From Micromonosporaceae bacterium KJ-029 (GTDB lineage: Bacteria; Actinomycetota; Actinomycetes; Mycobacteriales; Micromonosporaceae), in contig BIFP01000002.1 of the NCBI GenBank assembly GCA_005402585.1, positions 1-64,000 on the forward strand: a DNA stretch of 64,000 bases, in the 5' to 3' direction. The translations under genes and the position numbers were made by a program. The first letter of the stretch is position 1. Each line of letters starts with the position of its first letter. Below the pieces are notes generated by a model. The model did not search any database. It saw nothing but the letters and a program-made list of their open reading frames with translations, and had not been told where the DNA came from. This document shows, piece after piece, positions 706 through 56,633 of the stretch.

Positions 706-1662
706 TCAGCAGTGCCCGTCGAACCAGCGGTGGATCAGGAACAACGCGATCGACGACGGCGGGGGTAGCAACAGCCGGGCACCATCCACGTCGACCGGCC
801 GGCCCGCCAACGCCACGCCGATCTCCTGCCGGGTGAACCAGCGGGCCTGGGCGATCTCGGCGGGATCGACCCGCAGCGGGTGCTCCGGGTCGGCGACGGC
901 CAGGAAGCCGAGCATCAGCGAGCCGGGAAACGGCCATGCCTGGCTGCCCGCGTACGCGACGTCGGCCACCGGGACGCCGACCTCCTCGTGTACCTCCCGC
1001 AGCACCGTGGCCTCGGCCGACTCCCCCGGCTCGACGTACCCGGCCAGGCAGGAGAACCGCCGCTTCCCCTCGGCGCTGGGCCAGGTGGCGTTGTTGCCCA
1101 GCAGGCACCGCCCATCGATGCCGTCGACCCCGTCGTGCACGAGGACGATCATCGCCGGGTCGGTACGCGGCCACACCCGCTCGCCCCGGGCGTCCACCCT
1201 GGACCAGCCGGCCTCGTCCGCCCGGGTCGGCTCGCCGGTGACCGGGTGGTAGAGGTGGCGCAGGTGCCAGTTGGTCAGCGCCAGTGCCGTGGTGAACAGA
1301 CCGGCGTCCCGGTCGCCGAGCAGGTGCCCGACCTCGCGCAGATGCGCCGGGCGGGTGTCCGGTACCGCCGCCAGCGCGGTGTGCACGCAGAAGACCGGCA
1401 CCCCGTCCGGTTCCACGCCGAGGAACATCGCCTCGGTGGCGAGCGCCGGCGGCAGGTCGTCCGCCTCCGTCAGGACCAGTGCCGGCACCGGGGTGTCGGT
1501 ACGCACCAACGCCCGCCCACCGGCCTCGACGTCGAGCACCAGCACCCGCGCCCCGGCCCACGCCTGCGCCAGCCACTCCGGGTCGGCACGCCGGTGCGCG
1601 GCCCGGTCCAGTGTGGAGCGGGCCAGCGGCGGGTTGACCTCGCCCCCGCTGCGATCGCTCAT
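706..1662 (-). CDS. nudC: NAD(+) diphosphatase NudC (Nudix hydrolase)
   Basis: Product of 318 aa in the NudC family, which hydrolyses NADH/NAD+ and NAD-capped RNA ends. The Nudix box is complete: GYVEPGESAEATVLREVHEE followed by VGV, giving GX5EX7REVHEEVGV, at about residues 200-225. The adenylate-recognition region SQAWPFPGSLMLGF, typical of NudC, follows. The four zinc-ribbon cysteines of the E. coli enzyme are absent: the matching stretch reads RHLYHPVTGEPTRADEAGW. The ATG (1660-1662) overlaps the TGA of a repeat-encoded leader ORF (family A), which is itself chained to the upstream M16 gene, so nudC is probably translated by coupling at the end of the M16 operon. adnB and adnA lie close by, recalling the nudC-adnB-adnA neighbourhood of mycobacteria. 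Confidence 0.93.
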   Translation of the reverse strand: MSDRSGGEVNPPLARSTLDRAAHRRADPEWLAQAWAGARVLVLDVEAGGRALVRTDTPVPALVLTEADDLPPALATEAMFLGVEPDGVPVFCVHTALAAVPDTRPAHLREVGHLLGDRDAGLFTTALALTNWHLRHLYHPVTGEPTRADEAGWSRVDARGERVWPRTDPAMIVLVHDGVDGIDGRCLLGNNATWPSAEGKRRFSCLAGYVEPGESAEATVLREVHEEVGVPVADVAYAGSQAWPFPGSLMLGFLAVADPEHPLRVDPAEIAQARWFTRQEIGVALAGRPVDVDGARLLLPPPSSIALFLIHRWFDGHC

Positions 1663-1742
1663 GCCGGCGCTCCGCTACGCTCCGCGCCGCCATGAGGCAC
1701 CAACGCACTACGCTGATGATTCGCTCGCTGACGCTCGCTCAT
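1659..1742 (-). CDS. Repeat-encoded 27-aa leader ORF (family A, copy next to nudC)
   Basis: The ORF starts at ATG 1742-1740 and stops at TGA 1661-1659, which overlaps the nudC start as ATGA. It encodes a 27-residue peptide starting MSERQRANHQRSALVPH and ending ERSGAPA. GGAG seven bases before the end of the unit is placed as a ribosome binding site for nudC. It is identical to the neighbouring copy (1739-1822). The same peptide, diverged, is encoded at 40786-40869 and 42695-42778. Whether the peptide itself matters or only its translation is unknown. Confidence 0.55.
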   Translation of the reverse strand: MSERQRANHQRSALVPHGGAERSGAPA

Positions 1743-1820
1743 GCCGGCGCTCCGCTACGCTCCGCGCCGCCATGAGGCACCAACGCACTACGCTGATGAT
1801 TCGCTCGCTGACGCTCGCTC
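1661..1820 (-). repeat. Family A start-codon repeat, two perfect 80-bp tandem units
   Basis: Bases 1661-1740 and 1741-1820 are identical over 80 bp. Read on the minus strand, each unit runs from ATGAGCGAG to a GGAG-containing end, immediately before the next ATGAGCG. The perfect identity points to a recent duplication or continuing homogenisation. Confidence 0.95.
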
Positions 1821-1822
1821 AT
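1739..1822 (-). CDS. Repeat-encoded 27-aa leader ORF (family A, copy next to M16 gene)
   Basis: This is the first of two identical tandem units. Its ATG (1822-1820) overlaps the TGA of the M16 gene (1821-1819) as ATGA, and its own TGA overlaps the ATG of the second copy. A ribosome finishing the M16 subunit could therefore pass through two mini-ORFs before reaching nudC, with every junction a 4-nt overlap. Confidence 0.55.
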   Translation of the reverse strand: MSERQRANHQRSALVPHGGAERSGAPA

Positions 1823-3156
1823 GGCCGCACCGGCACGGTCTCGACCGACGTCAGGGTGCCCAGCGATGCCGCGATCCGCTCAGCGTCGCCGAGCACGACG
1901 GTGACCGCCCGCGCCGGGGCGAGGTACCGGGCCGCCGCCTCGGCGACGTCGTCGACGCTCGCCTTGGCCAGCCGGGCCGCGTGCTCGGGCAGGAAGTCCA
2001 GCCGCAGCCCGTTGCCGGCGTACGCGCTGACGAAGGACGCCAACCCCGCCTGGGTGGAGATGCCGAGCTGGAGCGTGCCGAGGGCGTATTGGCGGGCCTG
2101 CTCCAACTCGTCCGGACCGGGCGGCAGGGTGGCCAGCCGGCCCAGCTCGTAGCTGGTCTCCAGCAGTGCCGGCGCGGTCACCTCGGTGGCCACCTCGGCG
2201 GTGGCCACCAGCAGCGAGCCGGCCACCGAGTGCTCGACCAGCGAGTGCGGCCCGTACGTGTAGCCCTTGTCCTCGCGGATGTTCTCCACCCACCGGGAGG
2301 AGAAGTACCCGCCGAAGATCAGGTTGGCCAGTTGCAGCGCGGCATGGTCGGGGTGGGTACGCGGCACCGCCGGCAACGCCACCCGGACCGACGACTGCAC
2401 CGACCCGGGCCGGTCGACCAGCAGCAGCGGGCCGGGCTCCAGCGGCGGGGCGGGCGGCAGTTCGGCGGCGTGCCCGTCGCCGTTCCAGCCGCCGAGGGCC
2501 TTCTCGGCCGCGTCCAGCGCCCGCTCCGGGCGTACGTCGCCGACCAGCACAAGCACCGCGCCGGCCGGATGCACCCGCTGGGCGTGCAGCGTCCGCAGTG
2601 CCGCCGGCCGGACTGCCCGGACCTGCTCCGGGTCCGGCGTCTGCACCGCGTACGGGTGCCGGCCGTAGATCCGTTTGAGTAGCGCGGTACGGGCCAGATG
2701 CGCCGGCTGGCTCTGGGCGACCTGGATCCCGTCGACCAACCGGTCCCGCTCGACGCCGACCCACTCGGCCGGATAACTGGCGCCGGTGAGCACCTCGGCG
2801 AGGATCTCCAGCATCCGGTCCAGCCCGGTGGCCAGGCTGGCGCCGGAGAGCATCAGCCGGTCCGGGTCGAGCCCGGCGGAGAGCCCACCGCCAATCTTCT
2901 GCAGCTCGGCGGCGATCTGCACGCTGGACATCGTGTCCGTGCCGGACAGCATGGTCTGCGCGAGCAGGTGCCCACGGGCCAGGTGGGCCCGACCGAACGG
3001 CATCCAGAGCCGCAGCTCCACCAGCGGGACCGCCGGGCGGCGTACCGCGATCACGGTGAGCCCGTTGTCGAGCGTGCGCTCGGCCTGGCTCGGCAACTTG
3101 AGCCGACGGGTCGGGCCGAGCGGCGGCAGGGGTCGCGGCCCCACGGTCGCGGTCAC
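1819..3156 (-). CDS. M16 family peptidase-like protein, non-catalytic partner subunit
   Basis: Product of 445 aa resembling M16 (pitrilysin/processing-peptidase) proteins: an N-terminal ERTLDNGLTVIAVRRPAVPLVE strand region in the family pattern, and the C-terminal half with the typical IREDKGYTYG motif. It lacks the HXXEH zinc site; the expected place reads RGHLLAQTMLSG. It is therefore probably the non-catalytic partner of the adjacent HLFEH-containing protein, as in two-subunit M16B pairs. The start is GTG 3156 with AAGGAGGG just upstream. An upstream in-frame GTG (3216) would add 20 residues, all encoded by a family B repeat unit, so that extension is probably repeat-derived. The gene is cotranscribed with the upstream peptidase. 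Confidence 0.88.
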   Translation of the reverse strand: MTATVGPRPLPPLGPTRRLKLPSQAERTLDNGLTVIAVRRPAVPLVELRLWMPFGRAHLARGHLLAQTMLSGTDTMSSVQIAAELQKIGGGLSAGLDPDRLMLSGASLATGLDRMLEILAEVLTGASYPAEWVGVERDRLVDGIQVAQSQPAHLARTALLKRIYGRHPYAVQTPDPEQVRAVRPAALRTLHAQRVHPAGAVLVLVGDVRPERALDAAEKALGGWNGDGHAAELPPAPPLEPGPLLLVDRPGSVQSSVRVALPAVPRTHPDHAALQLANLIFGGYFSSRWVENIREDKGYTYGPHSLVEHSVAGSLLVATAEVATEVTAPALLETSYELGRLATLPPGPDELEQARQYALGTLQLGISTQAGLASFVSAYAGNGLRLDFLPEHAARLAKASVDDVAEAAARYLAPARAVTVVLGDAERIAASLGTLTSVETVPVRP

Positions 3157-3275
3157 GAGGCCCTCCTTCGTTCGCGACTGCGGGGCTCGCAAAACCGGCT
3201 CACTCCTCGCGGTCACAGAGCCTCCTTCGTTCGCGACTGCGGGGCTCGCAAAACCGGCTCACTCCTCGCGCTCAC
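3157..3275 (-). repeat. Family B start-codon repeat, two tandem units
   Basis: Two closely similar units (59 and 60 bp) lie between the M16 genes. Each holds, on the minus strand, a GTG start, GAGGAGTGAGCC, the shared core GCGAGCCCCGCAGTCGCGAA and an AAGGAGG ribosome binding site just before the next GTG. The first unit starts GTGAGCGCGAGG. The second starts GTGACCGCGAGG, matching the first nine bases of the downstream gene (GTGACCGCG). Confidence 0.92.
3213..3275 (-). CDS. Repeat-encoded 20-aa leader ORF (family B)
   Basis: The ORF starts at GTG 3275-3273, which overlaps the TGA of the upstream peptidase (GTGA), and stops at TGA 3215-3213, which overlaps the next GTG (3216). The peptide is MSARSEPVLRAPQSRTKEAL. 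The AAGGAGG inside its last codons can serve the next start. The second unit (3216-3157) has one extra base relative to this one, lacks a stop, and runs in frame into the downstream M16 gene. Confidence 0.5.
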   Translation of the reverse strand: MSARSEPVLRAPQSRTKEAL

Positions 3276-17346: not shown

Positions 17347-17351
17347 CCTGC

Positions 17352-17406
17352 AAGGAAGGGCCCCTTCTTAACGCCTGGCGTATAGGAAGGGGCCCTTATT
17401 AACACC
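17352..17406. repeat. Family C GGGCCC palindromic repeat
   Basis: The arms AAGGGCCCCTTC (17356-17367) and GAAGGGGCCCTT (17386-17397) are perfect 12-bp complements around TTAACGCCTGGCGTATAG. It occupies the gap between the convergent dapD and subtilase stops and may double as a terminator. Related copies lie at 35540-35650 (a head-to-head pair) and 56579-56633. Confidence 0.9.
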
Positions 17407-33396: not shown

Positions 33397-35541
33397 GTGG
33401 ACTTTCCCGAGCTGGCCGCCCGGACCCGCCGGTTCAGCCACGGGGCGCCGCGCGCCGTCACCGTGGCCGACGACGGCGGCCGGGTGGTCTTCCTGCGCTC
33501 CGCCGGACCGGAGGACCCGGCAGACGCACTCTGGCTCCTGGACGTCACCACCGGCGAGGAGCGGCTGATCGCCTGTCCGGCCACCCTGCTCGGCGCGGAC
33601 GCCGACCTCGGCGCGCTCAGCCCCGGGGAACGCGCCCGGCGCGAGCGGCTGCGGCTGAGCGCCTCGGGCATCGGCTCGTACGCCCTCGACGGCGCGGGCC
33701 GGGTGGCGGTGTTCGCGCTGGCCGGCCGGTTGTTCCGGGCCGACCTGGTGCACGGTGACGTGATCGAGGTGCCCGCCGTCGGGCCGGTGCTCGATCCCCG
33801 ACCCGACCCGACCGGCCAGCGGCTGGCGTACGTGACCGACGCCGCCGAGGGAGTCCGCCGGGGCCAGCTACGGGTGGTGGACATCGACGGCGACGACACC
33901 ATCCTGGCCGGCGAGGACTCCGGGGTGGTGTGGGGCCTGGCCGAGCACATCGCGGCGGAGGAGTTCGGGCGGCACCGCGGCTACTGGTGGGCGCCGGACG
34001 GGCGGTCGGTGCTGGCCGCCCGGGTCGACGAGTCCCGGTTGCCCCGCTGGCACCTGCACGACCCGGCGGAGCCGGCGAGCCCGCCGGTCAGCGTCGCGTA
34101 CCCGGTGGCGGGCGGACCGAATGCTGAGGTCAGCCTGCACCTGCTCGACCTCGACGGCGGCTGGGTCGACGTGCACTGGGACCGGGAGACCTATCCGTAC
34201 CTGACCGCGGTGCACTGGGCCGAGGGTGCCCCGCTGATCACCGTGCTGCGCCGGTCGCAGCAGCACGGACTGGTGCTCGCCGTCGACCCACGCACCGGCG
34301 AGACCCAGGTACACGCCGAACTGGCCGACCCGCGCTGGGTGGAGCCGATCCCGGGTACGCCCGCGCATCTGCCCGACGGGCGGGTGCTGGTCGGCGGTGA
34401 GTTGGCCCACGACGGGTACGACGCCCGCTGTCTCTTCGCCGACGGCACGCTGCTCACCCCGCCCTCGCTGTACGTACGTCGGGTGGTCGGCCGGCTGGTT
34501 GCCGGCACCGGGCCGGCGGACCTGCTGGTGGAGGCCAGCGACGGCGAGCCGAGCGAGCAGCACCTGTTCCGGGTACGGACCAGCATCGGCGGTGGCGTCG
34601 ACGCCCGCCGGCTCACCACCGACCCGGGCTGGCACAGCGCCGCGGTCGGCGGTGACGTGCTGGTCGTCGGCAGCGCCTCGCTGGACCACGCGGGCACCCG
34701 GTGGACGGTGCGGCAGGGCGATCGCGAGGTGGGCACGCTGCGCTCGCTGGCGGCAACCCCGGCGTACTCCCCGTTGCCGCTGCTGGAGCGGGTGACCGAC
34801 CGGCGGCTGCCCTCGGCGGTGCTCTACCCGGACAACCACGTCACCGGGCGACGGCTGCCGGTGCTGCTGGACATCTACGGCGGGCCGGGGCACCAGGAGG
34901 TGCTCGCCGCGCGGGCGGCCTGGCTGGAACGGCAGTGGTGGGCCGACGCCGGCTTCGCGGTGGTGGTCGTCGACAACCGGGGTACGCCGGGCGTCGCCCC
35001 GTCGTACGAGAAGGCCATCCACCGGCGGGTGGCCGACGTGATCCTGCTGGACCAGGTGGAGGCGCTCACCGCGCTCGCCGACAAGCATCCGGACCTGGAC
35101 CTCGGCCGGGTCGGGGTGCGCGGCTGGTCGTTCGGCGGCTGGCTGGCCGGCCTGGCGGTGCTGCGCCATCCGGAGCTGTTCCGGTGCGGGATCGTCGGCG
35201 CGCCGGTCACCGACTGGGCCCTCTACGACACCGCGTACGCCGAGCGTTATCTCGGCCTGCCCGACGACGGCCTGGACGTGTACGCGCACCACTCGCTGGT
35301 GGAGTTGGCGGCCGAGCCGGTCACGGGCCCGGAGCAGGCCCGGCCGCTGCTGCTGGTGCACGGCATGGTCGACGACAACGTGGTGGCCGCGCACACGCTG
35401 CGGTTGTCGGCGGCGCTGCTGGCCACCGGCCGGCCGCACTCGGTGCTACCGCTGACCGGGGCGACCCACATGGCCGCCGGCGGCCTCGCCGAACGCCTGC
35501 TCCGCCTGGAACTCGACTTCCTCCGCACCCACCTGATGTAA
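33397..35541 (+). CDS. S9 family prolyl oligopeptidase (dipeptidyl peptidase IV-like)
   Basis: Product of 714 aa. A beta-propeller N-terminal domain (AEEFGRHRGYWWAPDGRSVL with the family AEE/WAPDG pattern) precedes the alpha/beta hydrolase domain. The nucleophile is in GVRGWSFGGWLAGL (near residue 578), the aspartate in LVHGMVDDNV (near 661) and the histidine in GATHMAAGG (near 690). It cleaves dipeptides from peptide N termini; no signal sequence is evident. The TAA stop is shared with the first bases of a family C palindrome. The convergent neighbour is the peptide importer, a plausible partner in peptide use. Confidence 0.93.
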   Translation: MDFPELAARTRRFSHGAPRAVTVADDGGRVVFLRSAGPEDPADALWLLDVTTGEERLIACPATLLGADADLGALSPGERARRERLRLSASGIGSYALDGAGRVAVFALAGRLFRADLVHGDVIEVPAVGPVLDPRPDPTGQRLAYVTDAAEGVRRGQLRVVDIDGDDTILAGEDSGVVWGLAEHIAAEEFGRHRGYWWAPDGRSVLAARVDESRLPRWHLHDPAEPASPPVSVAYPVAGGPNAEVSLHLLDLDGGWVDVHWDRETYPYLTAVHWAEGAPLITVLRRSQQHGLVLAVDPRTGETQVHAELADPRWVEPIPGTPAHLPDGRVLVGGELAHDGYDARCLFADGTLLTPPSLYVRRVVGRLVAGTGPADLLVEASDGEPSEQHLFRVRTSIGGGVDARRLTTDPGWHSAAVGGDVLVVGSASLDHAGTRWTVRQGDREVGTLRSLAATPAYSPLPLLERVTDRRLPSAVLYPDNHVTGRRLPVLLDIYGGPGHQEVLAARAAWLERQWWADAGFAVVVVDNRGTPGVAPSYEKAIHRRVADVILLDQVEALTALADKHPDLDLGRVGVRGWSFGGWLAGLAVLRHPELFRCGIVGAPVTDWALYDTAYAERYLGLPDDGLDVYAHHSLVELAAEPVTGPEQARPLLLVHGMVDDNVVAAHTLRLSAALLATGRPHSVLPLTGATHMAAGGLAERLLRLELDFLRTHLM

Positions 35542-35650
35542 GGAAGGGCCCCTTGTTAACGCCTGCGGTATAGCAGGGGCCCCCTGTTAACAGTGCTGTT
35601 AACAGGGGGCCCCTGCTATGCACGAGGCGTTAAGAGGGGGCCCTTCCTTT
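35540..35650. repeat. Head-to-head pair of family C repeats forming a ~110-bp palindrome
   Basis: The left copy runs from AAGGAAGGGCCCCTTGTTAA to CTGTTAACAG; the right copy is its near-perfect reverse complement, with the centre at about 35594-35595. The first two bases coincide with the stop codon of the S9 peptidase, and the last lie a few bases from the stop of the substrate-binding protein gene. The whole intergenic gap is thus repeat. Confidence 0.93.
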
Positions 35651-35654
35651 CACA

Positions 35655-37551: not shown

Positions 37552-38538
37552 TCAGCCGAGCCGGACCCGCGGGTCGATGGCCGCGTAGAGCAGGTCCACC
37601 AGGACGTTCGCCAGTACCACGAAGACCGCCGCGATCAGCACCGTGGCCATGATGGTCGGCAGGTCACCGGCGCGTACCGCGTCGACCGCCGTCCGGCCGA
37701 GCCCCCGGATGCCGAAGGTCGTCTCGGTGATCACCGTGCCACCCAGCGCCGCGCCCACGTCCAGCCCGGCCACTGTGACCACCGGCGTGATCGCGGCGCG
37801 CAGCGCGTGCCGCCCGTACACCCTCGTCCTGGTCAGGCCCTTGGCCCGCGCGGTACGGACGAAGTCCTCGCTCAACGTCTCCAGCATCTGCGCCCGGAAC
37901 AGCCGGGCGTAGATCGCGGAGAACAGGAACGCCAACGACACCCAGGCGAGCACCAGCCCACTGGCCCACCGCACCGGATCGTCGAACAGCGACGTGTAGC
38001 CCGGCACCGGCAACCAGCGCAGCGTGTAGACGAAGACCAGCAGCAGCACCGCGCCGACGAAGTACAACTGCATCGACGCGCCGGCCAGCGAGAAGCCGAT
38101 CGCCACCCGGTCCAGCCAGGTACCCCGGCGCAGCGCCGAGAGCATGCCCAGACCCACCCCGAGCAGCAGCCAGAGGATCGCCGCCGGGATGACGATGCTC
38201 AGCGTCACCGGCAGTACCCGGGCCATGGTGTCGGTGACCGCCTCGTTGTTCACGTACGACCAGCCCAGGCAGGGCGCGTCGCAGCGACCGCCCTGGGCGC
38301 TGCCCAGATCCCGCCCGGTGACGATCCCCTTCATGTAGCCCGCGTACTGGCTGACCAGCGGATCACGCAGACCCAACTCCTGGCGTACCCGCTCCAACCG
38401 CTCCGGGTTGCAGTTCTTCGGGCACATGCCGGTGACCGGGTCACGGGGCAGCGCGAAGAACATCAGGAAGGTCAGCACGGTCACCGCGAAGAGGGTGAGC
38501 ACGGCGGAGAGGATCCGCTTGACCAGGAAGCGCAGCAT
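37552..38538 (-). CDS. Peptide ABC transporter permease (DppB type)
   Basis: Product of 328 aa starting MLRFLVKRILSAVLTLFAVTVLTFLMFF, with six predicted membrane segments. The permease signature DFVRTARAKGLTRTRVYGRHALRAA is the EAA loop that contacts the ATPase. It works with the downstream binding protein and the DppC/D/F homologues. ATG 38538 is used; it is preceded by AGGTGGG within a family B repeat unit and overlaps that unit's TGA (TGATG). The repeat pair thus replaces an ordinary intergenic junction with DppC. Confidence 0.93.
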   Translation of the reverse strand: MLRFLVKRILSAVLTLFAVTVLTFLMFFALPRDPVTGMCPKNCNPERLERVRQELGLRDPLVSQYAGYMKGIVTGRDLGSAQGGRCDAPCLGWSYVNNEAVTDTMARVLPVTLSIVIPAAILWLLLGVGLGMLSALRRGTWLDRVAIGFSLAGASMQLYFVGAVLLLVFVYTLRWLPVPGYTSLFDDPVRWASGLVLAWVSLAFLFSAIYARLFRAQMLETLSEDFVRTARAKGLTRTRVYGRHALRAAITPVVTVAGLDVGAALGGTVITETTFGIRGLGRTAVDAVRAGDLPTIMATVLIAAVFVVLANVLVDLLYAAIDPRVRLG

Positions 38539-38597
38539 CAGACCCACCTTTCATTCGCGACTGCGGGGCTCCGCTGCGCTGCACTCCTCGCGCTCAT
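38538..38597 (-). CDS. Repeat-encoded 19-aa leader ORF (family B, proximal to dppB)
   Basis: The ORF starts at ATG 38597-38595 and stops at TGA 38540-38538, sharing one base with the dppB ATG. The peptide is MSARSAAQRSPAVANERWL. A sequence change in the middle of the unit shifts the frame relative to the other family B copies, yet the ORF still ends exactly at the next start codon. Confidence 0.45.
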   Translation of the reverse strand: MSARSAAQRSPAVANERWV

Positions 38598-38656
38598 CAG
38601 AGCCACCTTTCATTCGCGACTGCGGGGCTCCGCTGCGCTGCACTCCTCGCGCTCAT
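38597..38656 (-). CDS. Repeat-encoded 19-aa leader ORF (family B, distal copy)
   Basis: The ORF starts at ATG 38656-38654, ten bases after the dppC stop, and its TGA overlaps the next unit's ATG (TGATG). It encodes the same 19-residue peptide as the adjacent unit. Confidence 0.45.
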   Translation of the reverse strand: MSARSAAQRSPAVANERWL

Positions 38657-38666
38657 TGGGGCACCC

Positions 38667-39686
38667 CTACCTCGACGACTTCGGGTCGAGTGCGTCGCGC
38701 AACGCGTCCCCGAACAGGTTGAAGGCGAACACCAGCGCGAAGATCGTGACGCCGGGGAAGAAGACGAACGCCGGACCGGTCTGCAGGTAGTCCAGGCTCT
38801 GGTAGATCATCCGGCCGAAGCTCGGGGTCTCCTCGGTCAGCCCGACGCCGATGAACGACAGCGCCGCCTCGCTGGTGATGAACTGCGGCACCGCGAGCGA
38901 GAAGGACACCAGGATCGGAGCCCAGGTGTTCGGCAGCAACTGCCGGAAAAGCATGTGGCCGAGCCCGGCCCCGCTGGCCCGGGCCGCCTCCACGAACTCC
39001 CGCTCGCGTAGGGCGATCACCTGGCCGCGGACCAGCCGGGCGGTGCTGGTCCAGCCGAAGACGGCGAAGATCGCGATCAGCACCCCGATCCCGAAGGCCG
39101 GGGGCACCGCGTCCCGCTGACCGTAGAAGCGCAGCGTCAGCGTCGGGGTCAGGGCGAGCGCGATGACCAGGAAGGGCAGCGCGAGGGTCAGATCGGTGAT
39201 CCAGTTGACCACCGCGTCGAGCCAGCCGCCGAGGTAGCCGGCGAGCGCGCCGAGCACCACGCCGATCGCCGCGGTGAGCACCGCCGCCGCGAAGGCGATG
39301 AACAACGAGGTACGCAGGCCGTAGACCAGCCGGATGAAGATGTCCCGCCCCGTCCGGGGCTCCAGCCCGAAGAAGTGCTCGCCGGAGACGCCACCCGCGT
39401 AGCCGAGCGGCATGCTGAAACCATCCAGCTTGTGCTGGAACTGGTCCCGGGGGCCGATCCCGTAGACCAGTTCGATCAACGGTGCGGCGAGCGCCACCAG
39501 CACGAACAGGACCAGCATCGCCCCGCTGATCAGCGCGGTGCGGTCCCGGCGCAGTCGCAGCCAGGCGAGTTGCCCAGGCGAGCGGCCGACGACCCGGCGG
39601 CCCTGGGGCGCACCGGTCGCACCACCGGCCTCCCCACCGGACTCGATCTCGGCCAGTGCCGCACCGTCGACCGGCGACAGACTCAT
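38667..39686 (-). CDS. Peptide ABC transporter permease (DppC type)
   Basis: Product of 339 aa. A cytoplasmic start rich in Gly/Glu is followed by the DppC N-terminal motif [20 protein letters not shown], a large extracytoplasmic loop containing [22 protein letters not shown], and the EAA loop [20 protein letters not shown]. It forms the channel together with DppB. Its ATG overlaps the TGA of the DppF ATPase gene (ATGA) without any repeat, showing the ancestral junction type for this operon. Confidence 0.93.
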
Positions 39687-40789
39687 TCCGGCCCTCCTCC
39701 GTCGGCCACGCCCGTCGGCGCCCCGCCGTCCAGGTCACCCGCTGGCGCCGCACCGCCCGGCACGCCCACCGGCGCCGCGCCGATCGGCCCCGCCTCCGGG
39801 AAGTGGCAGGCGGTGGCCTGGTTACCGCCGTCGCGCCGGACCAGGGCCGGCTCCTCGACGGCGCACCGGTCGCGCGCCTTCGGGCAGCGGGTGCGGAACC
39901 GGCAGCCCGACGGCGGGTCGAGCGGGGTGGGCACGTCACCGGAGAGCCGGACGCGCCCGGCCGGACCGAGCCTGGTCACGTCCGGCACCGCCGACAGCAA
40001 CGCCCGGGTGTACGGGTGCTGCGGGCGCTCGTAGATGTCGTCCCGATCGCCGATCTCGACGATCCGGCCGAGGTACATCACCGCGACCCGCTGGCAGAAG
40101 TGCCGGACCACGGCCAGGTCGTGGGCGATGAAGACGAAGGCCAGCCCCAGCTCGCGTTGCAGGTCCCGCAGCAGGTTGACCACCTGGGCCTGGATCGAGA
40201 CGTCCAGCGCGGAGACCGGCTCGTCGGCCACCACCAGCCGCGGCCCCGGCGCCAGCGCCCGGGCGATGCCGACGCGCTGGCGCTGGCCGCCGGAGAACTC
40301 GTGCGGGTACCGGTTGTAGTGCTCGGGGTTCAGGCCGACCAGTTCCATCAGCTCCCGCACCCGGGCCTTCGTCCCACCGGGCGGGATGGTCCCGTTGACC
40401 TGCAACGGCATCGCGATGATCCGGCCGACCGTGTGGCGGGGATTCAGCGAGGCGTACGGGTCCTGGAAGATGATCTGGAGATCCGACCGCAGCGGGCGCA
40501 GCTCGCGCCGGCCGGCGTGGGTGATGTCGCGCCCGGCGAACTCGATGCTGCCCCCGGTCGGCTCCAGCAGCCGCACGAGCATCCGGCCGGTGGTGGTCTT
40601 GCCGCAGCCGGACTCGCCCACCAGGCCCAGCGTCTCGCCCGGCCGCACCTCGAAGTCCAGCCCGTCCACCGCACGTACCAGCCCCGCTCGGCGCAGGCCG
40701 CCGCGGACCGGGAAGTGCTTGGTCAGGCCACGTACCGCCAGCAGTGGCTCCGCGTCGTCGCCACTCCCCCTGGGCGTGACGATCCTCAT
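39683..40789 (-). CDS. Peptide ABC transporter ATP-binding protein (DppF/OppF type)
   Basis: Product of 368 aa with [20 protein letters not shown] (Walker A), [20 protein letters not shown] (signature) and [19 protein letters not shown] (Walker B). The oligopeptide C-terminal domain has a cysteine cluster ([20 protein letters not shown]). The last 35 residues are an Ala/Gly/Pro-rich low-complexity tail. It powers the importer together with the DppD homologue. The ATG overlaps the TGA of a family A leader ORF. Confidence 0.93.
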
Positions 40790-40869
40790 GCCAGCACTCC
40801 GCCACGCTCCGTGCCGTCGTGGGGCACCAATCCGCTGAGCTGACTATTCGCTCGCTGACGCTCCCTCAT
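40786..40869 (-). CDS. Repeat-encoded 27-aa leader ORF (family A, between the two ATPase genes)
   Basis: This is a single unit. Its ATG (40869-40867) overlaps the DppD TGA (ATGA) and its TGA (40788-40786) overlaps the DppF ATG (ATGA). The peptide begins [17 protein letters not shown] and ends ERGGVLA, with the same length and the same ERQRAN, LVPH and ER-G positions as the other copies. The unit starts ATGAGG, as does the gene after it (ATGAGGATC), whereas other family A units start ATGAGC. Confidence 0.55.
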
Positions 40870-42662: not shown

Positions 42663-42688
42663 CGGATGTCAGTGGACTCGCCTAGGGT
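42659..42688 (+). promoter_or_regulatory. Predicted promoter giving a leaderless repeat ORF ahead of tldD
   Basis: CTGACG (42659-42664) and TAGGGT (42683-42688) are separated by 18 bp. The A of the repeat ATG (42695) lies seven bases past the -10, the usual transcription start distance. The message would begin with the leader ORF itself. Confidence 0.45.
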
Positions 42689-42694
42689 CGGCCC

Positions 42695-42778
42695 ATGAGC
42701 GAGCGCCAGCGAGCGAATCATCCGCACGGCGCGTTGGTGCCTCATGACGGCACGGAGCGAAGCGGAGTGCCGGCATGA
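42695..42778 (+). CDS. Repeat-encoded 27-aa leader ORF (family A, upstream of tldD)
   Basis: The ORF starts at ATG 42695 and stops at TGA 42776-42778, overlapping the tldD ATG (42775-42777). The peptide begins MSERQRANHPHGALVPH and ends ERSGVPA. AGCGGAGTG near the end supplies a GGAG ribosome binding site for tldD. Unlike the other family A sites, no gene is joined upstream, so the mini-ORF would be the first coding sequence on the mRNA. Confidence 0.55.
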   Translation: MSERQRANHPHGALVPHDGTERSGVPA

Positions 42779-44211
42779 GCGAGTTCGACGCGGCCGGCGC
42801 CGCCGTGCAGGCCGCGCTGGACGCGGGCGCCCGGTACGCCGACGCCCGGGTGATGCACCGGCGGTACGAGTCGATGTCGGCCCGCAACGGCGAGGTCGAG
42901 GCACTCACCCAGGACGAGAGTGTCGGGCTGGGCGTACGCGCGCTGGTCGGGTCGAGCTGGGGTTTCCACGCCGTACCGGAACTGTCCGACCGGGCCGCCC
43001 GCGACGCCGGCCAGCGCGCCGCGCGGACCGCCACGGCGAGTGGCCTGGTCCCCGGGCCGCCCGTCGACCTGGTCCCCTCCCCACCGGCCATCGCGAGCTG
43101 GTCCTCGCCCTGCGAGGTGGATCCGCTCGGCGTCTCTCTCGCCACCAAGGGCGACCTGCTGGTGACCGCCACCGGTGCGATGGTCGACCACGGCGCTGAC
43201 CTGGCCGAGGGCCTCTACCAGGTCTGGGACACCGCGAAGTGGTTCGTCTCCAGCGAGGGCCACCGCATCGACCAGCACATCCGCGAGTGCGGAGGTGGCA
43301 TCTCGGCCACCTCGATCGGCGACGGCGAGACGCAGCGCCGGTCCTGGCCGAGCTACCGCGGCCAGTACGGCACCACCGGCTGGGAGCTGGTCGACTCCCT
43401 CGACCTGACCGCCCACGCGGCGCGCATCGCCGAGGAGTCGCGGGCGCTGCTGACCGCGCCGCTCTGCCCGGCCGGCGAGACCGACCTGATCCTCGGCGGC
43501 GAGCAGTTGGCGTTGCAGATCCACGAGTCGGTCGGGCACGCGATAGAGCTGGATCGCATCCTCGGCTGGGAGGCCGCCTTCGCGGGCACCTCGTGGCTGG
43601 ATCTCGCCCAGCTCGGCTCGCTGCGGTACGGCTCCGAGCTGATGAACATCACCATCGACCCGACCATTCCGGGCGCGCTGGGCAGCTTCGGCTACGACGA
43701 CGAGGGCTCGCCGGCGGTCAAACGCGACGCGGTACGCGCGGGACGCTGGGTGGGCGTGCTGGCCGGGCGTGACTCGGCCACCGTCGCCGGCCTCGACTAC
43801 GGCGGCAGCGTACGCGCGGACGGCTGGGCGCGGCTGCCGATGGTGCGGATGACCAACGTGGGTCTGGAGCCCGGCCCGCACACCCTGGAGGAGATCGTCG
43901 CCGCCACCGACAATGGGGTGCTGATGGACGTCAACCGTTCCTGGTCCATCGACGACAAGCGGCTGAACTTCCAGTTCGGCTGCGAGATCGGGTGGGAGAT
44001 CCGCAACGGCCGGCGAGGGCGGATGCTGCGCAACCCCACGTACACCGGCATCGGCCCACTGTTCTGGCGCTCGATGGACATGCTCTCTTCCGAGGTCGTC
44101 TCGTGGGGCACGCCGAACTGCGGCAAGGGTCAGCCCGGCCAGGTCGGGCACACCGGCCACCCGGCCGCGCCGGCCCGGTTCCGCAACGTCCGAGTGGGTG
44201 TGCGGGCGTGA
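42775..44211 (+). CDS. tldD: TldD family metalloprotease
   Basis: Product of 478 aa with the TldD zinc site HESVGHAIELD (HEXXXH, near residue 250) and downstream metal-binding region NFQFGCEIGWEIRNGRRG. TldD pairs with TldE/PmbA to trim modified peptides such as microcins and to degrade unfolded peptides. The gene that follows is the TldE partner. Translation is probably coupled to the family A leader ORF, and its TGA overlaps the GTG of the first family B unit, so repeats flank it on both sides. Confidence 0.93.
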   Translation: MSEFDAAGAAVQAALDAGARYADARVMHRRYESMSARNGEVEALTQDESVGLGVRALVGSSWGFHAVPELSDRAARDAGQRAARTATASGLVPGPPVDLVPSPPAIASWSSPCEVDPLGVSLATKGDLLVTATGAMVDHGADLAEGLYQVWDTAKWFVSSEGHRIDQHIRECGGGISATSIGDGETQRRSWPSYRGQYGTTGWELVDSLDLTAHAARIAEESRALLTAPLCPAGETDLILGGEQLALQIHESVGHAIELDRILGWEAAFAGTSWLDLAQLGSLRYGSELMNITIDPTIPGALGSFGYDDEGSPAVKRDAVRAGRWVGVLAGRDSATVAGLDYGGSVRADGWARLPMVRMTNVGLEPGPHTLEEIVAATDNGVLMDVNRSWSIDDKRLNFQFGCEIGWEIRNGRRGRMLRNPTYTGIGPLFWRSMDMLSSEVVSWGTPNCGKGQPGQVGHTGHPAAPARFRNVRVGVRA

Positions 44212-44270
44212 GCGCGAGGAGTGAGCCGGGTTTGCGAGCCCCGCAGTCGCGAACAGAGGTGGCACCGTGA
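44208..44270 (+). CDS. Repeat-encoded 20-aa leader ORF (family B, first unit after tldD)
   Basis: GTG 44208 overlaps the tldD TGA (GTGA), and the TGA at 44268-44270 overlaps the GTG of the second unit (44267). The peptide is MSARSEPGLRAPQSRTEVAP, differing at five of 20 positions from the copy at 3213-3275. Confidence 0.5.
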   Translation: MSARSEPGLRAPQSRTEVAP

Positions 44271-44325
44271 GCGCGAGGAGTGAGCCGGGTTTGCGAGCCC
44301 CGCAGTCGCGAACAGAGGTGGCACC
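44208..44325 (+). repeat. Family B start-codon repeat, two identical 59-bp units
   Basis: Bases 44208-44266 and 44267-44325 are identical. Each runs GTGAGCGCGAGGAGTGAGCC, then the core GCGAGCCCCGCAGTCGCGAA, then AGAGGTGGCACC before the next GTG. The tldE gene itself begins with the first 24 bases of the unit, so it starts with a third, partial copy. Confidence 0.95.
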
Positions 44326-44329
44326 GTGA
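44267..44329 (+). CDS. Repeat-encoded 20-aa leader ORF (family B, second unit before tldE)
   Basis: GTG 44267 overlaps the stop of the first unit, and its TGA (44327-44329) overlaps the tldE GTG (44326). The encoded peptide is identical to that of the preceding unit. Confidence 0.5.
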   Translation: MSARSEPGLRAPQSRTEVAP

Positions 44330-45807
44330 GCGCGAGGAGTGAGCCGGGTGAGCTGGACATCGCCGGTCGGGTGGTGGAACTCGTCGCCCGGCTGGCCGGG
44401 GCGGGTGCCCAGGCCGAGGTGGTGGTGACCCGCGCCGACCTGGCGTTGACCCGGTTCGCCAACTCCGCGATCCACCAGAACGTCGCGGAGTCCGCGGTGG
44501 AGGTCCGGCTGCGGGTGCACGCCGACGGGCGCACCGCCGGCGGCGGCGGGAGCGCGGTCACCGCTGACGGGCTGCGTGCGCTGGTGGAGCGGGTGCTGGC
44601 GGCGGCCCGGCATACCCGGCCCGATCCGGCCTGGCCGGGGCTCACGCCGCCGGTGCCGGCGCCGACCTCGACGGGGTGGGACGCGGCCACCGCGTACGCC
44701 GGGCCGGACGAGCGGGCCATCATGGTCCGGGCGTTCGTGGACGCGGCCGGCGGGCTGGAGACCGCCGGCTACTGCCGCACGGCGTTCCGGGAGGCGGCGT
44801 TCGCGAACTCGGCCGGGCACGCGGCACAGGGGCGGACGGCCGAGGCCGCGATGGACGGGATCGCCCGGGCCGGCGGCGCGGACGGCACGGCCCGGCACTG
44901 CGTCGACCGGCTGGCCGATCTCGACGGTGCCGGTCTCGGGCAGCGGGCCGCCGCGAAGGCCCGAGCCGCGGTCGACCCGGTCGAGCTGGCACCCGGGCGG
45001 TATCCGGTGGTGCTGGAACCGGCCGCCGTCGCCGACCTGCTGCAGAACCTCTCCTGGTACGGCTTCAACGGCAAGCGGTACGTCGAACGGCAGTCGTTCG
45101 CCGAGCCCGGCCTGGCCCAGCTCGACCCGGCGGTGACCCTGGTCGACGACCCGCTCGGCGCCGCCGGGCTGCCGTTCGATCTGGAGGGCACGCCGACCCG
45201 GGCGCTGACCCTGGTGGACGCGGGCACCACGACGGCGGTGGCGCACGACCGGCGCAGCGCCGCCGGGGTCGGCGCCGAGTCGACCGGCCACGCCTCGGTC
45301 GACAGCCCGACCTTCGGCCCGATCCCGCGTAACCTGCGCCTCGTCCCGGCCGGCACGGCGGGCGCAGCCGGCACCGCGGGTGCCACGGGCGCCGGCCCCG
45401 CGGGTGCCACGGGTCCAACCGGTATGAGCGGACCGACGGCGACCGGCGCCGGCCGAGCCGCGCTGGCCGGCGCGGTGGCCGATCCGGACACCGCCGCCCT
45501 GGTCTCGCGGGTGCAGCGGGGCCTGTTGGTCAGCGATTTGTGGTACACCCGGGTGCTCGATCCGAAGAGTCTGGTCATCACCGGCCTGACTCGTAACGGG
45601 CTGTGGCTGGTCGAGGAAGGCCAGGTCACCCGCGCGGTCCGCGACCTGCGTTTCACCGAGTCGTACCCGCGAGCGCTCGCGCCCGGCGCGGTACTGGAGG
45701 TGGGCCGGCGCGCGGTGCGCCAACCGGACCGCACGGACGGCGTGTGGTGGGAGGCGCCGTCGCTGCGGCTGGCCTCCTGGAACTTCACCGGCGGGGCGTC
45801 CGGCTGA
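44326..45807 (+). CDS. tldE: TldE/PmbA family protein, non-catalytic partner of TldD
   Basis: Product of 493 aa lacking a zinc HEXXXH motif, as expected for TldE/PmbA. Family features include NSAIHQNVAESAVEVRLRVH and LLVSDLWYTRVLDPKSLVIT. The first eight residues (MSARSEPG) come from a partial family B repeat. Residues about 345-375 form an unusual Gly-X-Y-like stretch (GTAGAAGTAGATGAGPAGAT and onward) inserted in a conserved region between PRNLRLVP and the DLWYTR block. It is cotranscribed with tldD across two repeat-encoded mini-ORFs. Confidence 0.9.
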   Translation: MSARSEPGELDIAGRVVELVARLAGAGAQAEVVVTRADLALTRFANSAIHQNVAESAVEVRLRVHADGRTAGGGGSAVTADGLRALVERVLAAARHTRPDPAWPGLTPPVPAPTSTGWDAATAYAGPDERAIMVRAFVDAAGGLETAGYCRTAFREAAFANSAGHAAQGRTAEAAMDGIARAGGADGTARHCVDRLADLDGAGLGQRAAAKARAAVDPVELAPGRYPVVLEPAAVADLLQNLSWYGFNGKRYVERQSFAEPGLAQLDPAVTLVDDPLGAAGLPFDLEGTPTRALTLVDAGTTTAVAHDRRSAAGVGAESTGHASVDSPTFGPIPRNLRLVPAGTAGAAGTAGATGAGPAGATGPTGMSGPTATGAGRAALAGAVADPDTAALVSRVQRGLLVSDLWYTRVLDPKSLVITGLTRNGLWLVEEGQVTRAVRDLRFTESYPRALAPGAVLEVGRRAVRQPDRTDGVWWEAPSLRLASWNFTGGASG

Positions 45808-56578: not shown

Positions 56579-56633
56579 AGTTAATAAGGGGCCCTTCCTA
56601 TACCGCAGGCGTTAACAGGGGGCCCCTCCTTAC
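56579..56633. repeat. Family C GGGCCC palindromic repeat in a divergent gap
   Basis: The element reads GTTAATAAGGGGCCCTTCCT, then ATACCGCAGGCGTTAA, then CAGGGGGCCCCTCCTTA. It has the same composition and order as the copies at 17352 and 35540 but sits between divergent genes, so it cannot be a simple 3'-end terminator here. Confidence 0.88.

Follow-up and report, generated by a model that had tools for sequence, protein, structure and literature searches.

A probable mobile repeat with a coupling frame on gene start codons of Micromonosporaceae bacterium KJ-029, resembling mycobacterial MIRUs

An 80-bp repeat of Micromonosporaceae bacterium KJ-029 (designated family A) is very probably an interspersed element, mobile or spread by copy-and-paste, which docks on gene start codons and carries a coupling frame, in the manner of the mycobacterial interspersed repetitive units (MIRUs), reportedly described by Supply et al. 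in 1997. It was found in the window, a stretch of 64,000 nucleotides (contig BIFP01000002.1, positions 1 to 64,000) from a genome of 7.2 Mb in 81 contigs. The tldD of the window was closest to named Micromonospora (M. craterilacus, 96%; very near records may be left out of this comparison).

Family A units on start codons

The window held four family A units, with the following features.

1743..1822, minus strand: family A unit, first of a tandem pair; 27-codon ORF, 80 bp; ATGA overlapping the stop of the M16 peptidase gene
1663..1742, minus strand: second family A unit of the pair, with the same sequence as the unit at 1743..1822
1659..1662, minus strand: ATGA junction; TGA of the last unit overlaps the nudC ATG (ORF 706-1662)
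40790..40869, minus strand: family A unit lying between the genes of two oligopeptide ABC ATPases
40786..40789, minus strand: ATGA junction; unit TGA overlaps the start codon of the second of these ATPase genes (ORF 39683-40789)
42695..42774, plus strand: family A unit upstream of tldD, without a coupled upstream gene
42775..42778, plus strand: ATGA junction; unit TGA overlaps the tldD start (ORF 42775-44211)

Each unit was 80 bp, began with ATGA and was open for 27 codons; its closing TGA overlapped the next ATG as ATGA, and GGAG lay 7 nt upstream of the ATG of the junction. By Pfam, the genes started by these units encoded a NUDIX/NADH-pyrophosphatase-like protein (nudC), an oligopeptide ABC ATPase and a TldD/PmbA peptidase, and the upstream neighbour of the tandem pair (1663-1822) was an M16 peptidase gene. 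There were two TldD/PmbA peptidase genes, and which of them is called tldD and which pmbA is our choice. A sequence-only reading of the window had described these four 80-bp units, two of them identical and in tandem, each a 27-codon ORF ending in an ATGA overlap with GGAG at ribosome-binding distance; it had the pair bridging the M16 peptidase stop and the nudC start through ATGA junctions, and the cassette recurring at 40786-40869 and 42695-42778 on start codons in coding orientation. All of this was borne out by the window sequence and the Pfam assignments.

The unit at 42695 showed that a stop/start overlap was not required, as no upstream gene was coupled to it. This unit was inserted between a TAGGGT motif (42683-42688), which ended six bases before it, and the tldD ATG. 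TAGGGT was kept before tldD in many aligned species, and its distance of six bases from the ATG suggests that tldD is perhaps a leaderless gene.

A blastn search of the same genome with the unit, in which 40 of 78 candidates were scored, gave at least 40 matches; a sequence-only model built from 31 units gave 92, some of them partial. Fifty-seven stretches of the genome were fetched, 52 picked by sequence match and five as background. Together with the window they yielded 60 arrays with 73 units, a subset of the 92 model matches; the five background stretches contained no family A array. By an automatic check, the right end of 54 of the 60 arrays lay on a coding start codon; in 53 of these it fell on the base expected, and in L025 it was one base away. 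"Coding" was here judged by GC-by-position and not by annotation, except at the M. terminaliae site described below. The other six were a mixed group: L013 and L017 had a partial last unit fused to the gene, L279 had a shortened second unit of 50 bp that was still coupled to a coding start, L028 was fused in frame, its right end lacking DTGA, and L036 and L042 were remnants that were not on a coding start.

An intact left end was kept by 47 arrays and was lost or decayed in 13. From the unit frame a DTGA-coupled chain led into a coding ORF in 45 of these 47, and the remaining two (L025 and L028) were in-frame fusions to the gene. All 55 coupling steps were DTGA. Shifted-frame controls reached a coding ORF via DTGA in 6/47 (+2) and 8/47 (+4) arrays; earlier frame controls were dropped as unsuited, since shifted frames stay open too and shift +1 begins on the TGA. 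These counts confirmed that the position on start codons, which is not random, and the DTGA coupling lie beyond chance. In the first 36 arrays with an intact left end, an upstream coding ORF ended on the first ATGA in 13 and was absent in 23, indicating that the target was the start codon and not only a stop/start overlap.

Orthologous junctions and a second repeat family

A second family of tandem repeats at gene starts (family B, 59-62 bp), coupled like family A, was present at three places in the window.

44208..44325, plus strand: two 59-bp family B units between tldD and pmbA; architecture of family A, other sequence
3158..3275, minus strand: pair of family B units ahead of the M16 peptidase gene; the frame of the second runs open into the M16 ORF (1819-3216)
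38536..38653, minus strand: tandem family B units at an ABC permease junction; TGATG in place of DTGA ends the first of them

The family B set comprised 42 arrays with 71 units in 87 sources, and 31 arrays were DTGA-coupled into coding ORFs. The other 11 were five breaks without a coupled step, one break after one step, two contig edges, one direct coding frame, one long frame unscored as coding and one array without a left DTGA. Exceptions were also read individually: L101 and the array at 38536 of the window used TGATG, and L115 and L122 were in-frame fusions. Of 121 genomes sampled from the order, 14 contained family B: 11 were of the same genus (the genome of the window included), one came from a different genus of the family, and two, elsewhere, gave weak matches. 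Profiles of families A and B gave no clear mutual match (the best E was 1.2 when B was run on 31 A units and 0.03 when A was run on 28 B units; these sets were small and had a short shared motif). The first 21 nt of pmbA (44326-44346) were the same as those at the left end of family B units and were read as a putative B remnant fused as an N-terminal extension of pmbA.

Orthologues of these junctions were compared across species. Upstream of tldD, where 80 of 81 rows were scored (window included), family A was found in 10 of the 80; the other rows included clean empty sites (e.g. TAGGGTCGGTCC followed directly by ATGACC) and decayed remnants left unscored by the model. Filled and empty species differed at this site by the insert. 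At the tldD-pmbA junction (78/81 scored), family B was found in 15 rows and family A in three, and the remaining 60 were empty or carried diverged A-like inserts (L090, L091, L096 and L156) or another insert (L145), all unscored by the models. The fewest changes were 8 upstream of tldD and 13 at the tldD-pmbA junction, counted on a quick tldD tree in which, of 78 inner branches, 27 had good support and 31 had weak support. The insert of L145 (Hamadaea) was ~74 bp (2 mod 3, by hand count) with ATGA at both ends, and it perhaps represents a further repeat family.

The M16-nudC junction was read in 50 of 61 genomes: family A in 12, family B in 4, empty in 17, other in 16 and unresolved in one. 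Several of the "other" rows looked like plain differences at the nudC start. Copy number at this junction ranged across species from one to two A units and from one to four B units. At the acyltransferase-gpsA junction, the genome of the window had two A-like units (L017), and in M. terminaliae a single 59-bp B unit filled the exact interval from the annotated stop of the acyltransferase gene to the annotated start of the glycerol-3-phosphate dehydrogenase gene. The same junctions were reused by different families.

The occurrence of empty, A-filled and B-filled orthologous junctions indicated that the units were mobile or copied elements and not gene sequence. A mis-annotated 5′ part of the gene, or an inherited leader gene, would fit one observation, namely that the gene's own frame (frame +2) was open straight through the unit into the gene in 22/47 arrays, but it is refuted by the empty sites, by the two different families at one site and by the annotated stop and start that flank the B unit in M. 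terminaliae, and we regard it as practically out of the question.

Frame, ribosome-binding site and fold of the unit

Unit length was measured between borders in the 56 of 73 units that had both; the 17 without two borders, L028 among them, were left out, as were lengths from frame walks, which are 2 mod 3 by construction. The length was 2 mod 3 in 55 of the 56, the sole exception being the 81-bp unit of L025, an in-frame fusion. The earlier claim that length is kept at exactly 80 bp did not hold, because 80 bp was found in 49/56 units and the others measured 71, 71, 74, 74, 59, 68 and 81 bp; the rule was 2 mod 3.

The unit frame contained a stop in 0/56 units, against 14 and 21 in the other two frames. 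When the consensus was mutated with the observed spectrum, 8.65 ± 2.61 units with a stop were expected among the 49 full-length units and none was observed; none of the 1000 simulation runs reached zero. The proposal that the frame is kept uninterrupted despite divergence was therefore strongly supported. A substitution test of the units gave changes by codon position of 144:173:186, and two sub-groups read different peptides (MSERQRANHQ and MSERSERIIR) through compensating indels. Taken together, the lack of in-frame stops, the changes by codon position and the differing peptides indicated that the reading frame of family A is kept and the peptide is not conserved.

A Shine-Dalgarno (SD) sequence preceded the junction in the 31 aligned units (GGAG in 27, GAGG in 3 and GGGG in 1). 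It was enclosed by a 3′ hairpin (columns 55-79), in which 96.8% of 248 cells were paired. The paired share and the covariation score of this hairpin were reached by 0/500 shuffles, and the paired share was also above slid controls. One pair was changed on both sides, a value as high in 333/500 shuffles, and further pair types were not above shuffles (110/500 as high). Folding of six single units was no stronger than that of shuffles (z -1.37 to +0.81).

From these features we infer that the unit frame is translated and the gene start re-initiated. The ATG of an inserted unit would be served by the target's own ribosome-binding site, by a leaderless promoter or by an upstream stop/start overlap. 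Ribosomes would then read the 27-codon frame, terminate at the TGA inside ATGA and restart on the overlapping gene ATG, aided by the GGAG of the unit 7 nt upstream. With a length of 2 mod 3 and an open frame, one, two or more tandem units could be added without silencing the gene. The gain would lie in the harmlessness of the insertion and not in a benefit to the host.

A benefit to the host is what the opposite explanation proposes, namely a regulatory cassette whose unit number tunes translation of the downstream gene, or which supplies a promoter, so that the repeats are domesticated beyond mere tolerance. The conserved SD and the hairpin around it speak for such a role, as do two mycobacterial cases: according to PMC2734929 the fpg1 transcript of M. 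tuberculosis falls with shorter repeat regions, and according to PMC4213456 a MIRU-bearing senX3-regX3 region can drive regX3. Against it stand the uneven occupation of the sites, which certain species have filled and their relatives have empty and for which the tree requires no fewer than 8 and 13 changes, the unconserved peptide, and the two-sided changes and further pair types of the hairpin, which did not exceed shuffles. We consider a regulatory cassette unlikely.

Spread of family A and comparison with MIRUs

The right flank of family A began RTGAGC in 43/54 arrays, against 9/56 coupled junctions without units, and it matched the left end of the unit over at least 8 bases in 13/54 arrays, against 1/56 junctions without units. 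Either starts that read RTGAGC are favoured as targets, or the left end of the unit is brought along with the copy. At L108 and L125, which were filled, the bases were AGC and AGT, and in their kin ACC and ACG, a hint that the copy carries its left end across. At the tldD site, AG at codon 2 was found in 9/10 filled and 18/68 empty rows, and with four supported independent pairs the sign test was not significant. Given the likeness between the right junction and the left end of the unit itself, our guess is that family A spreads by copying through short homology at RTGAGC. The same data bear on an untargeted insertion, in which units land anywhere and selection purges all but the start-codon copies. 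In a gene-dense genome insertion within genes would be costly, but selection alone would permit intergenic copies away from starts, in conflict with 54/60 arrays on a start and 53 to the base, and it does not account for the excess of RTGAGC flanks; untargeted insertion thus appears improbable.

Docking on start codons recalls MIRUs, which are best known as typing markers of mycobacteria. A MIRU core sequence was used as a query. It was found in 71/148 genomes of genus g2, with 0 for the reversed control in the rows listed, and g2 was on this basis taken as Mycobacterium. In six mycobacterial arrays the spacing was 53 bp in three, 52 bp in two and 51 bp in one, so the 2-mod-3 rule is less strict there than in family A. 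L283, L232 and L284 were MIRU-like arrays with spacings of 52 and 51 bp, L284 being the one of 51 bp and lacking DTGA.

MIRUs are mobile, insert at start codons and have an internal ORF coupled at -4 nt (PMC12548453), and their units of 40-100 bp lie at 41 places in M. tuberculosis, while the rnc-fpg1 junctions are short (1-54 bp) in species outside the M. tuberculosis complex (PMC2734929). At senX3-regX3 MIRUs are confined to M. leprae and the M. tuberculosis complex (PMC4213456), a narrower range than that of the MIRU core in the g2 sample. Family A matched this description in several respects. Its units of 59-81 bp (56 with both borders) and its 92 model matches fit interspersed repeats of 40-100 bp; its coupling frame overlapped the next start by 4 nt (45/47 arrays, all steps DTGA); its sites were empty and filled among orthologues, from which its mobility would follow; its tandem copies, like those of family B, varied in number across species at one junction; and its length was 2 mod 3, as are the published MIRU lengths of 77 and 53 bp. 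The opinion of the sequence-only reading that no described element behaves in this way could therefore not be upheld. Family A differed from MIRUs in genus and had no detectable sequence homology to them: the best match of its profile to mycobacterial loci had E 0.14, the profiles of family A, its relatives in genus g3 and MIRU gave no mutual match (best E 0.12, for the relatives against MIRU; further values 0.15 and 0.34), and the family B profile did not match g3 or MIRU loci. Family A thus shows a MIRU-type behaviour that is already known, in a different genus and with a different sequence, and family B accompanies it as a second family of this kind. In the open-access literature, by title and start of abstract among the best matches listed, no account of such repeats in Micromonospora or Nocardia was recognised.

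A search across Micromonosporaceae, proposed in the sequence-only reading, matched the family A model to 23 of 39 genomes (22 of 38 genera) of the family sample at E <= 0.001, some by a single weak match. In a phylum sample with stricter filters, 8/296 genomes matched, four of them weakly. The matches outside the order (L191, L193, L194 and L195) were off ATGA starts and were rejected as noise, and two of the four remaining belonged to a different genus (g3, perhaps Nocardia) in a different family (f2) of the same order. Within g3, 26/30 genomes matched, with up to 64 matches, and among the 19 best loci, which were fetched, 17 were coupled into coding ORFs, one broke and one was direct. The coupled units were of 77 bp (12, the commonest) and 80 bp (4), with one 161-bp stretch. 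Genera g2 and g3 belong to the same family f2, so relatives of family A occur in a MIRU-bearing family.

Other small repeats were also compared. REP elements with RAYT (Y1) transposases are small palindromic interspersed repeats with many copies. Family A is also small, interspersed and numerous, but it is bound to start codons, and six single units of it fold no better than shuffles; a Y1 transposase as its mover was rejected, as a Y1_Tnp search of the genome gave one partial match. MITEs are small mobile repeats without a transposase of their own, with terminal inverted repeats and a target duplication. Family A resembles them in size and in lacking its own transposase, but its unit ends are not inverted repeats (alignment, by eye), and no separate target duplication larger than ATGA was seen (two sites, by eye), where one that coincided with the unit's own ATGA would be indistinguishable. 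The synthetic nfORF booster (PMC13255528) is a short nonsense ORF with an internal ribosome-binding site by its stop that raises translation of the next gene. This arrangement resembles that of family A, but the booster was engineered in E. coli and is not mobile. Plasmid or phage carriage was rejected, since the family A unit of the window had no match in plasmid and phage collections; a relative of A had no match in the plasmid collection, and family B gave one match there, an M. terminaliae record.

Families A and B in Micromonospora, together with the relatives of A in a further genus, suggest that inserting at a start codon without silencing the gene is a problem which repeats of a parasitic or neutral kind can solve time and again. 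A broader idea is put forward tentatively, as one that we hold to be rather doubtful: docking on start codons with a coupling frame may be a widespread way of life that arose independently in no fewer than three repeat families of actinobacteria, namely A (including its relatives in a second bacterial family), B and MIRU, which share no detectable homology. A single host process, so far unrecognised and acting at RTGA(GC) starts via short homology, might move them all. Natural pairs of empty and filled operons outside mycobacteria offer material for testing translational coupling and movement, and such repeats bear on the annotation of start codons.

The window also contained a ~56-bp interspersed palindromic repeat (17349-17404, 35537-35652 and 56580-56633) with cores AAGGGGCCC and GTTAAC.
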